DNA of 64,000 nt, from NCBI RefSeq assembly GCF_900446695.1, contig NZ_UAVP01000003.1, positions 186,001 to 250,000 on the forward strand, in the 5' to 3' direction. Below are positions 58,228 to 61,760 of this stretch, one piece after another. Position numbers and translations under genes: made by a program. This stretch comes from Capnocytophaga sputigena. GTDB lineage: Bacteria > Bacteroidota > Bacteroidia > Flavobacteriales > Flavobacteriaceae. A model generated the notes under the pieces. The model saw nothing but the letters and a program-made list of their open reading frames with translations. It made no database searches and was not told the origin of the DNA. Positions within the stretch are counted from its first letter, which is position 1. Every line of letters begins with the position of its first letter.

Positions 58228-59730
58228 ATGGTTAGAGTTAGATTTGCTCCAAGTCCTACAGGAGCATTGCATATCGGAGGCGTACGTACCGCCTTATTCA
58301 ATTATTTATTCGCCAAAAAACACGGTGGCGACTTCTTACTTCGCATTGAAGATACCGACCAAAATCGCTATGTACCAGGCGCTGAGCAGTACATCATCAA
58401 CTCACTGAACTGGTTAGGGCTTACTTACGACGAGGGAGTAGGCAAAGAGGGCAAACACGCTCCCTACCGCCAAAGTGAACGCAAGCCGCTCTACAAACAA
58501 TATGCCGATGCTCTTATTGAGAATGGTTGGGCGTATTACGCTTTTGATACTGCTGAGGCACTCGATATTGCGCGCAAAGAGGCTGAAGCCAAAGGGGAAA
58601 CCTTTATATACAATTGGGCAACACGCGATACTTTGCAAAACTCTCTATCGCTGAGTGCTGAAGAAGTACAACAACGCCTACAACGCGGTGATGAATATGT
58701 AATTCGATTCAAAATGCCCCACAACGAACAGTTGAAAATGAACGATATGATTCGCGGGGAAGTAACTATTGATACGAGTACCTTAGACGACAAAGTGCTC
58801 TTCAAAAGTGACGGAATGCCTACTTACCACTTAGCAAACATCGTAGACGACCACCTTATGGAAATTACTCACGTAATACGCGGTGAAGAATGGTTGCCTT
58901 CTATGGCTTTGCACCTAATGCTCTACCGTGCTTTTGGTTGGCAAGCTCCCGCTTTTGCTCATTTGCCTCTTATCCTCAAACCTGTAGGTAATGGCAAACT
59001 CAGCAAACGCGATGGTATCAAACTCGGTTTTCCTGTCTTCCCAATGGATTGGACAGAGAATGGCGAAACGCTAAAAGGATTTAGTGGAGAAGGTTATTTT
59101 CCTGAAGCTCTTATCAACTTTTTAGCACTTTTAGGGTGGAATCCAGGGAATGATGAGGAGATTTTTTCAATGGAACAACTCATTCAACTATTTGATTTAG
59201 AAAAAGTACACAAGGCTGGGGCTCGCTTCGACCCTGAGAAAATCAAATGGTTCAACCACCAATATTTGCAAATGAAACCCAATGGTGAATTGGCTACCCT
59301 TTTCCAAAAAGACCTTACCGAAAGAGGTGTAACTGCTCCAATTGCTACCGTAGAAAAAGTAGTTGGACTCATCAAAGAACGCGCTTCCTTTGTAAGTGAT
59401 TTCTGGGAACTCAGCAAATTCTTCTTTGAAGCACCTACCCAATACGACGAAAAGGCAATTAAAAAACAATGGAAAGAACAAACTCCTACCATTGTGAAAG
59501 AAGTAGCTGAAGTACTCCAAAATACGGCTAATTTTACTTCAATTGCCTTAGAAGAGGCGGTAAAGCAATATATGGAAACAAAGGGTTTAGGCTTTGGTCA
59601 AGTAATGCCTCCATTGCGCTTGGCATTAGTGGGTGAACTCAAAGGTCCTCACATATTTGATATTATAGAGGTTATAGGTAAAGAAGAAACACTAAGCCGT
59701 TTGGACGCAATTCTTTCTGCTGAAAAATAA
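58228..59730 (+). CDS. gltX: Glutamyl-tRNA synthetase
   Basis: GltX charges tRNA-Glu with glutamate. The 500-residue class I synthetase has the HIGH motif as [18 protein letters not shown] (about 5-22) and the KMSKS motif as [14 protein letters not shown] (about 255-268). The C-terminal anticodon-binding domain and length are normal. It follows the ACT-domain gene in the same operon and precedes the cysteine attenuator. Confidence 0.97.
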
Positions 59731-59757
59731 AAAAATGAAATAATTTTTCACTTTTTA

Positions 59758-59788
59758 TTTGGTAGTTAGAAAAATATTCTTAACTTTG
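59758..59788 (+). promoter_or_regulatory. cysE-cysK promoter
   Basis: TTTG (59758-59761), 19 bases, TAACTTTG (59781-59788), ending 24 bases before the leader-peptide ATG at 59813. Confidence 0.65.
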
Positions 59789-59812
59789 CCCCATCAAATA
59801 GAACAATATTAT

Positions 59813-59890
59813 ATGACATTGTACACTTTAAACATAATGACGATGTGTTGCACACTCAATTTGAGCAGTGCAAGGCTCGTTATTTCTTAA
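59813..59890 (+). CDS. Cysteine leader peptide with tandem Cys codons
   Basis: A 25-codon ORF between the cys promoter and a terminator. Codons 12 and 13 (59846-59851) are TGT and TGC, two adjacent cysteines in the context MTMCCTL. A second ATG at 59837 gives a 17-residue version. The Cys codons overlap the 5' arm of hairpin 59848-59873, so a ribosome paused there for lack of Cys-tRNA would open that hairpin. This is the expected geometry for attenuation control of cysE and cysK. It has no homology of its own. Confidence 0.75.
   Translation: MTLYTLNIMTMCCTLNLSSARLVIS
59848..59873 (+). promoter_or_regulatory. Attenuator hairpin 1 and antiterminator arm
   Basis: TTGCAC (59848-59853) pairs with GTGCAA (59868-59873), and CTCAA with TTGAG inside it. 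The segment AGCAGTG (59864-59870) in its 3' half is a perfect complement of CACTGCT (59935-59941) in the terminator's 5' arm, so the two structures are mutually exclusive. Confidence 0.7.
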
Positions 59891-59929
59891 AGATATGTCA
59901 GTTACTATATTTTAACAAACGAAATAACA

Positions 59930-59968
59930 ACCCCCACTGCTTTATAAAGGTAGTGGGGGTATTTTTTT
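59930..59968 (+). terminator. Attenuator terminator in front of cysE
   Basis: ACCCCCACT (59930-59938) pairs perfectly with AGTGGGGGT (59952-59960), extended by wobble pairs, followed by seven T (59962-59968). It lies only 6 bases before the cysE ATG, too close to end gltX alone. Confidence 0.9.
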
Positions 59969-59974
59969 ATAACG

Positions 59975-60817
59975 ATGACAAAAATAAATTGTACTGAGAG
60001 TCTTATTAATGAACTCTATCGCGAAAGTAGAAACATCAAACACCACGTAAGCAAACAGCGTATTACACGCTTTGTAAACGACCTTTTTCAGTTCTTATTT
60101 CTTATTGACGAACGCACCTGCTTATCAAAAGTGAGTATAGAAGCCCGCTATGAAGAATTGCGTTGGGACTTTATCAATATTGTAGACGATTTTCTACAAA
60201 ACGAATCTCAAAAAGCAAAAACAACTGATTATTACGATTGTATTTTGCCTAATATCTATCAGCAATTGCGAGAAGATGCTCAGTATTTTATTGATAGCGA
60301 CCCTGCTGCAACTTCTATCAGAGAAGTACAAATCACCTACCCTGGCTTCTTTGCTATTATGGTATATCGCATTGCTCACGAATTGTGGTTGCGCAAAGTA
60401 CCTCTCTTGCCGCGTATGCTCACTGAATACGCTCATAGCAAAACGGGTATCGACATTCACCCAGGGGCAAGCATCGGAGTCCCTTTTATGATTGACCACG
60501 GTACAGGTATTGTAATTGGAGAAACTACAGTAATAGGCAACTATGTAAAAGTATATCAAGGGGTTACTTTGGGAGCTCTATCGGTATCAGTAGATAAGGC
60601 TCATACCAAGCGCCACCCTACCATTCAGGATAATGTGGTGATATACTCTGGTGCTACTATTTTAGGTGGCGAAACCGTAATAGGACACGATAGTATCATC
60701 GGCGGGAATGTATGGCTCACCAATAGCATCGAACCTTTTACTAAGGTTTTCCACAAAAGTCAGATTATTGTAAAGGACAACGAAGTATATGAAGAACCGA
60801 TTAATTTTGTTATCTGA
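59975..60817 (+). CDS. cysE: Serine O-acetyltransferase
   Basis: Serine acetyltransferase makes O-acetylserine from serine and acetyl-CoA, the entry to cysteine synthesis. The 280-residue protein has a helical N-terminal region and a C-terminal left-handed beta-helix of hexapeptide repeats. The repeats include GIDIHPGASIGVPFMIDHGTGIVIGETTVIG (about 166-195), the loop LGALSVSVDKAHTKRHPTI and SGATILGGETVIGHDSII. It starts 6 bases after the attenuator terminator and is followed by cysK after 34 bases. A feedback-resistant or sensitive form cannot be told from sequence. Confidence 0.93.
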   Translation: MTKINCTESLINELYRESRNIKHHVSKQRITRFVNDLFQFLFLIDERTCLSKVSIEARYEELRWDFINIVDDFLQNESQKAKTTDYYDCILPNIYQQLREDAQYFIDSDPAATSIREVQITYPGFFAIMVYRIAHELWLRKVPLLPRMLTEYAHSKTGIDIHPGASIGVPFMIDHGTGIVIGETTVIGNYVKVYQGVTLGALSVSVDKAHTKRHPTIQDNVVIYSGATILGGETVIGHDSIIGGNVWLTNSIEPFTKVFHKSQIIVKDNEVYEEPINFVI

Positions 60818-60851
60818 TTCCTAAACAAGTAACTAATAAATAATTTATATA

Positions 60852-61760
60852 ATGGCGTACAAAAATGTTTTAGAAGTCATCGGGCATACTCCCGAGGTGA
60901 AAATCAACAGATTGTTTGGCAATGATGCCAACGTATTTATCAAATTAGAGCGCTTGAACCCTGGCGGTAGTATCAAAGACCGTATTGCGCTCGCTATGGT
61001 TGAAGATGCCGAAGCTAAAGGCATCCTCAAAAAAGATAGTGTGATTGTAGAGCCTACCTCTGGCAACACGGGAGTGGGCTTGGCATTAGTAGCGGCTGTA
61101 AAGGGCTATAAACTCATCGTGGTAATGCCTGAATCAATGAGTATTGAACGCCGCAAGTTGGTAGCTACTTATGGTGCCGAAGTAGTACTCACGCCTAAAG
61201 AAAAAGGTACGGGCGGAGCTGTCGCTAAAGCTTTGGAAATAGCCGAAGACAAACCTAACTATTGGGTACCTCAACAGTTTAAAAATCCTGCTAATCCTGA
61301 TGTACACGAAAAAACAACTGCTCAGGAAATACTAAAATCTTTCCCCGAAGGTTTTGACTATTTCGTAACGGGAGTAGGTACTGGCGGACATATCTCTGGG
61401 GTATCAAAAGTGCTTAAACAACACTTCCCTAACCTCAAAACTGTAGCTGTAGAACCCGATCAATCGGCAGTGTTGAGTGGTGGTGCTCCAGGTCCTCACG
61501 CCCTGCAAGGATTGGGCACTGGCTTCATACCCGATAACTATAACCCTGCTGTAGTAGATGAAGTTATCCCTATCTCTAAAGAAGAAGCCTTTGATTACGC
61601 TCGCCGATTGGCTAAAGAAGAAGGTATTTTAGGAGGTATCTCTACTGGTGCTGCTTTAGCTGCCGTTGCTAAAGTACTCAAAAGAGACCCCAAAGCGCGT
61701 ATCCTCACTGTAAATTACGACACAGGAGAACGCTACTGGTCAGTAGAAGGACTTTTTTAG
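60852..61760 (+). CDS. cysK: Cysteine synthase A (O-acetylserine sulfhydrylase)
   Basis: CysK combines O-acetylserine with sulfide to give cysteine using PLP. The 302-residue protein has the PLP lysine in [11 protein letters not shown] (about 37-47), the substrate loop [13 protein letters not shown] (about 67-79), the glycine-rich phosphate loop [14 protein letters not shown] (about 176-189) and GISTGAAL near 268. It follows cysE in the cysteine-attenuated operon, so both steps from serine are under the same control. Cysteine also feeds BshC-made bacillithiol. Confidence 0.97.

Follow-up and report, generated by a model that had tools for sequence, protein, structure and literature searches.

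The gap between gltX and cysE in Capnocytophaga sputigena holds a promoter, a short reading frame with two adjacent cysteine codons and an intrinsic terminator, and this arrangement raises the question of what decides whether transcription reaches the genes for cysteine synthesis that follow. In the 64,000-nucleotide stretch analysed here (the window), gltX lies at 58228-59730, cysE at 59975-60817 and cysK at 60852-61760; both cys genes and all features of the leader element, which lies in the gltX-cysE gap, are on the forward strand. The cysE product, a serine O-acetyltransferase, has TIGR01172 (cysE) as its top NCBIfam match (E 2.9e-48), at 163.9 bits, under the model cut-off of 210.65, and it is 99% identical to CysE of C. 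periodontitidis, its closest named relative. The cysK product, cysteine synthase A, matches TIGR01139 with 410.8 bits, which exceeds the cut-off, and cysK follows cysE in all 15 Capnocytophaga loci compared. We hold it to be very probable that the gap encodes a ribosome-mediated transcription attenuator that would couple cysE-cysK to the supply of charged tRNA-Cys, a reading for which the parts, their conservation, their geometry and the co-variation of the inner antiterminator helix all argue, and in which the response to cysteine itself is presumed.

Reading from the 5' end, the promoter (59758-59788) consists of TTTG (-33) at 59758-59761 and TAACTTTG (-7) at 59781-59788 with a spacing of 19 nt, a combination that we take to be the -33/-7 promoter type of Bacteroidota. 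The leader ORF that follows, MTLYTLNIMTMCCTLNLSSARLVIS, has 25 codons (59813-59890, stop codon at 59888-59890) and contains the putative regulatory codons TGT TGC (Cys-Cys) at 59846-59851. These overlap the 5' arm of hairpin 1 (segments 1:2, 59847-59873), which would sequester AGCAGTG (segment 2, 59864-59870). AGCAGTG and CACTGCT (segment 3, 59935-59941) are exact reverse complements, and the 2 form the outer arms of an antiterminator, segment 3 being at the same time part of the 5' arm of an intrinsic terminator (59930-59968) with the stem ACCCCCACTGCTTT/AAGGTAGTGGGGGT and seven T at 59962-59968. Nine Watson-Crick pairs make up the terminator stem ACCCCCACT/AGTGGGGGT, which grows to 14 pairs when further ones, including G-U, are counted; 6 nt separate the end of the terminator from the cysE ATG (59975), and the end of the stem at 59960 is 14 nt from that codon. 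The promoter, leader ORF, hairpin, alternative pairing and terminator had all been placed by an earlier note on this DNA, and its coordinates agree with the sequence. Absent from that account is a perfect 8-bp helix nested within the AGCAGTG/CACTGCT pairing, formed by GTTATTTC at the end of the leader ORF (59879-59886) and GAAATAAC (59921-59928). Since the outer and inner helices nest, the antiterminator comprises about 15 bp instead of 7 and is stronger than was first described.

We infer the start site, the translation of the leader, termination and the response to cysteine from this arrangement, which would operate as follows. RNA polymerase would start near 59794 with a ribosome trailing on the leader ORF. 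If Cys-tRNA is scarce, the ribosome would wait at TGT TGC and mask the 5' arm of hairpin 1, and the freed AGCAGTG and GTTATTTC would pair with CACTGCT and GAAATAAC as those emerge, using up the 5' arm of the terminator and allowing transcription into cysE-cysK. If Cys-tRNA is ample, the ribosome would reach the stop codon at 59888 and cover GTTATTTC, and the terminator would form just ahead of cysE. In the absence of a ribosome, hairpin 1 would hold AGCAGTG, and the terminator would again form.

The leader RNA (59790-59974) folds to -54.7 kcal/mol as against a mean of -29.6 kcal/mol for dinucleotide shuffles (z -6.8; 0 of 200 shuffles as good). For the separate states, predictions were made on a transcript cut at segment 3, and their outcome is given as the probability of 2:3 pairing. 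When the ribosome sits on one or the other Cys codon, this probability is 0.84-1.00 in all nine cysE leaders, and that a ribosome stall would open the antiterminator is well supported by these models. In the ribosome-free state it is 0.00-0.02 in seven of the nine, where hairpin 1 wins, 0.99 in genome G009 and 0.62 in G018, and the closing of hairpin 1 is thus predicted to hold in most of the nine Capnocytophaga genomes compared. Predictions for a ribosome at the stop codon are mixed: with a realistic footprint, which permits pairs across the ribosome, the values run from 0.00 to 0.99 for a 15-nt trailing edge and from 0.00 to 0.75 for one of 18 nt, and a first prediction that blocked all RNA 5' of the ribosome was trivially near zero.

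How far is this design kept among relatives? When 20 Capnocytophaga genomes were searched with CysE, 16 gave a match, of which one (G019) has two weak partial matches only, and the other 15 were compared. The leader element is present upstream of cysE-cysK in 9 of the 20 genomes, and these are all nine of the genomes with a close CysE (68-100% identical to that of the window). Three of them (G010, G015 and G018) have the leader although gltX could not be found in the upstream flank retrieved for them, which ties the leader to cysE-cysK. Over the leader, G011 hardly differs from the window, and the nine leaders therefore amount to at most eight distinct lineages. The -7 box reads TAnnTTTGC in all nine related leaders (TAnnTTAGC in G015), a stem and a run of at least five T precede cysE in every case, and between promoter and cysE each has a short ORF with two to four Cys codons. 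These are adjacent as CC in eight of nine leaders, the exception being G008, which has four Cys codons, none adjacent as CC; the chance of CC in a random 24-codon ORF is about 0.0009 at the window's Cys frequency of 0.64%. The peptide MTLYTLNIMTMCCTLNLSSARLVIS is common to G000 and G011, and the others are MKLYAFQIMMMCCTFPVSGARLVIS, MKLAIYMMTMCCTLQKGSALLIIS, MRQYTFEIMMMMCCTLGTSSARLVIS, MYSICNIMCMWCTPKASSAACVIY, MILYILNTTAMMMCCMLDKSSAASVVVENIA, MEIYTNKNMMCCTTCKSSAYIVL and MMNYTNNNMMMCCTSQKAVSASLCH. Almost all leaders have Met codons crowded immediately 5' of the Cys codons, which may mean that Met is sensed too or that the ATGs are kept for pairing.

The sequence 5' of the Cys codons is variable; what stays constant is the frame of the ORF and the distance from the Cys codons to segment 2. 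In 9/9 leaders the first ATG past the promoter shares its frame with the Cys codons, standing 10-13 codons ahead of the Cys position. Counted from the second Cys codon's first base, segment 2 starts after 15 nt in eight leaders, the window's among them, and after 14 nt in one. A distance of 14-15 nt is about that to the leading edge of a stalled ribosome. With this geometry, a ribosome waiting at the Cys codons would cover the 5' arm of hairpin 1 and leave segment 2 free. The Cys-codon attenuator proposed in the earlier note is still the best explanation of the locus. The note would have given it up had relatives lost the Cys codons or the alternative pairing, and within Capnocytophaga both are kept in all nine genomes with a close CysE, allowing for a mismatch of the outer pairing in G011 and for the lack of CC in G008.

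Antiterminator and terminator exclude one another, and co-variation backs the inner helix of the antiterminator. The RNA 3' of the stalled ribosome folds as the outer and inner antiterminator helices in 9/9 leaders, each better than its shuffles (p 0.000-0.027). Counted by alignment column, 97% of cells are paired in the outer helix, 75% in the inner helix and 86% over both, and sliding the partners against one another lowers this last value to 36-62%. Covariation in the MAFFT alignment is weakly above shuffles, its score being matched by 29 of 500 and its two-sided pair changes by 136 of 500, in our reading partly because the inner helix shifts register. A better test was obtained by pairing the 5' inner arm of every species with the 3' arm of every species, for 8 of the 9 leaders (G011 left out) and with 20,000 permutations. 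Native arms pair at a mean of -9.1 kcal/mol and swapped arms at -6.3 kcal/mol (permutation 0.0003; 0.001 with one or two close relatives removed). The native partner ranks 1-3 in every row and first in two of eight rows, or in five of six once two relatives are dropped. The earlier note had proposed a test for covariation in hairpin 1 and in AGCAGTG/CACTGCT. Hairpin 1 gives no signal in the same swap test (8 leaders, 0.26). Beside its high level of pairing, the outer helix shows one two-sided change, from A-U to G-C in G018 (GGCAGTG/CACTGCC), together with G-U intermediates in G009 and G010 and the mismatch in G011.

The remaining Capnocytophaga loci look different. In the six genomes with a divergent cysE (CysE 49-54% identical), no Cys leader was found in the 420 nt before the CysE match. 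Five of these have a promoter-like box, with no stem-plus-T between it and cysE; the sixth, G003, has no promoter-like box, and its stem-plus-T is 131 nt upstream. These divergent loci (L080-L085) suggest, from sequence comparison, that two distinct cysE-cysK lineages may exist within Capnocytophaga.

Beyond the genus, leaders of this type had been sought across Flavobacteriaceae at the suggestion of the earlier note, and no convincing relative outside Capnocytophaga emerged from the loci examined, in which leaders of other sequence may be missed. A covariance model, R1, was run on 397 Flavobacteriaceae genomes (237 genera), with three Capnocytophaga among them, under stricter filters by which weak relatives may be lost. 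It matched the two Capnocytophaga leaders in the draw and four other genomes (E 0.003-0.009), where about four chance matches would be expected at E 0.01 per genome, and in none of these four, each read singly, does a Cys leader precede a sulfur gene. The best match outside Capnocytophaga (L090:1470-1700, in G041, of another Flavobacteriaceae genus) has a leader-like ORF, MTIIYTNNKAMKMRYQKVQGLLFV, and a terminator, with a possible alternative pairing AAGGCTT/AAGCCTT and then a second Met-rich short ORF, MKNFYRRNMIMMNKCMKMYQLFYGQKRKS (both peptides translated by eye); the next ORF there has no Pfam match. Of 66 loci (L005-L070) scanned for CC or CxC ORFs, eight were flagged, and none of the eight combines AGCAGTG with CACTGCT; L037 contains both motifs and has no CC or CxC ORF. 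Among 28 cysE loci outside Capnocytophaga (of 111 matching genomes), 8 have a C-rich short ORF, with no stem stronger than -8.9 kcal/mol. A check of cysD covered 30 loci, 28 of them outside Capnocytophaga (81 of 100 genomes match), and its candidates were rejected, L196 and L201 as lying within a long upstream reading frame and L200 as being about 1.5 kb away. TonB-receptor loci outside Capnocytophaga, of which 30 of 63 were inspected, yielded 4 with a CC short ORF and no terminator stem below -9.

Within Capnocytophaga, a weak R1 match in G013 (E 0.081) led to a second kind of gene, which encodes a TonB-dependent receptor and has MFLIQRNNMMMCCPMPYPCKTS and a terminator in front of it (leader L101:1477-1640, receptor L103:3296-6250). 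Four of the 20 Capnocytophaga genomes have an orthologue of the receptor (E 1e-30; further loci L105, L107 and L106), each with a Met/Cys leader, namely MSIIRRNNMMCCSMAYP in G007, MEFILPAYQPTIMCCRFQPSGRNVV in G018 and MTFTSKNMMMLCSMVSP, which has one Cys, in G011. A promoter motif precedes the leader in three of the four genomes, with none seen in G013. The pairing segments (ACATCAT/ATGATGT in G013 and G007) are unlike those of the cysE leaders. For a ribosome positioned on the Cys codon, 2:3 pairing is predicted at 0.85-0.99 in all four receptor leaders; without one it is predicted near zero in G007 and G011 and at 0.96 in G013 and 0.95 in G018, values so high that hairpin 1 would give no protection in the latter two. 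The receptor adjoins gamma-glutamyltranspeptidase in G013, G007 and G011 and comes directly after cysE-cysK in G018, and the six genomes with a divergent, leaderless cysE include G007 and G013. Gamma-glutamyltranspeptidase itself has no such leader on its own strand in any of nine loci, and an ORF flagged near it (L130) was rejected as lying on the opposite strand with no promoter.

We raise, tentatively, the possibility that Capnocytophaga has a regulator-free sulfur-amino-acid regulon, in which re-invented leaders with Met/Cys runs and unrelated pairing sequences attenuate cysE-cysK as well as a TonB receptor, neighbour of gamma-glutamyltranspeptidase, that imports a thiol peptide, for example a product of host glutathione; the import of such a substrate is suggested by the gene neighbourhood. 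If the receptor gene is induced by shortage of Cys-tRNA beside gamma-glutamyltranspeptidase, it may import a cysteine source, which would be a lead to its substrate. For specialists, the surprise is likely to lie in these receptor leaders and in the Met/Cys runs.

Several other explanations draw on the same evidence. Intergenic intrinsic terminators are common, and this one might be a plain gene-boundary terminator beside a chance ORF, with cysE-cysK expressed through incomplete termination. We give that almost no credence, since a promoter between gltX and the terminator puts the terminator within the leader of the cysE transcript itself, since the order of promoter, ORF, Cys codons, segment 2 and terminator is kept in nine genomes, including the three where gltX was not found upstream, and since the inner antiterminator arms co-vary. 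The alternative pairing by itself would suit any antitermination switch, and a riboswitch, a T-box or a protein-bound antiterminator might sense cysteine, O-acetylserine or tRNA-Cys directly, the ORF being incidental. This is very improbable given that positions 59000-61000 contain no Rfam match at a family's cut-off, and nothing up to E 1 except a Streptococcus sRNA (E 0.36), and that the ORF frame is kept and the Cys codons stand at a fixed spacing from segment 2 in spite of a variable sequence ahead of them. If the hairpin instead acted on translation, blocking the access of ribosomes to the cysE start through the same alternative pairing, the mere 14 nt between stem and ATG would be accounted for, but the T run after the stem, present in 9/9 leaders, is needed by a transcription terminator and needless for a translational block, and we regard this explanation as improbable.

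A different question is whether cysteine is the only amino acid sensed. If the Met codons before the Cys codons are also stall sites, then shortage of either Met or Cys would relieve termination, a form of joint sulfur amino acid sensing that is possible though rather unlikely. The longest Met/Cys runs in the cysE leaders (MCC, MCC, MMMCC, MCC, MMMMCC, MCM, MMMCCM, MMCC and MMMCC) and in the four TonB-receptor leaders (MMMCC, MMCC, MMM with LC next, and MCC) speak for it, runs of at least three M or C being absent from 15,588 background residues, as does the prediction that a ribosome placed one codon or two short of the first Cys still gives 2:3 pairing of 0.83-1.00 in 9/9 leaders. Against it, the ATG repeats also make the lower stem of hairpin 1 in several leaders and may serve pairing or provide spare starts, a ribosome three codons back drops G011 to a predicted 0.03, and 18 metE loci include no convincing Met leader, four having short ORFs with at least three Met/Cys (the one in G013 ends in CCF) with no terminator seen by eye.

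As a probable attenuator governed by Cys codons, the Capnocytophaga leader joins a known class. The enterobacterial trp, his and leu attenuators combine a leader peptide carrying regulatory codons with 1:2, 2:3 and 3:4 pairing and a T-run terminator; the Capnocytophaga leader differs in amino acid, genes and phylum, and its antiterminator is built of two nested helices that enclose a long AU-rich loop. Cys-codon attenuators are already in print for other phyla. Mycobacterial Cys leader ORFs are reportedly cysteine-responsive, going by the title of a 2020 study by Canestrari. The mycobacterial cys operons, as far as the accessible part of the article describes them, have polycysteine leader ORFs and no conserved terminator hairpin (PMC1262725), and such leaders are cited, in the accessible text of another article, as a case of translation attenuation (PMC13236596). 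They resemble the Capnocytophaga leader in placing a short Cys-codon ORF before cysteine-synthesis genes, whereas Capnocytophaga, on these partial descriptions, has in addition an intrinsic terminator and an explicit antiterminator.

Similar in design is the uORFC-8-2 motif before cysS in Rhodobacterales, for which ribosome-mediated attenuation is predicted and which, in the accessible sections of its description, likewise has a uORF whose two tandem Cys codons fall within the first stem, and a U-run terminator (PMC8632094). By that description, it belongs to Alphaproteobacteria and to cysteinyl-tRNA synthetase, whereas the Capnocytophaga leader belongs to Bacteroidota and to cysE-cysK, with separate copies at the TonB receptor. 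In Flavobacterium psychrophilum, also of the Flavobacteriaceae, reported strong clues to leader-peptide attenuation before amino-acid operons point to the same proposed mechanism, with no amino acid or cysteine gene named in the accessible part of the text (PMC9723704). We found no case of a cysteine leader in Bacteroidota or Capnocytophaga in the open-licence literature, and the leader described here would extend cysteine-sensing leader-peptide attenuation to this phylum and to cysE-cysK, with a full terminator and antiterminator.
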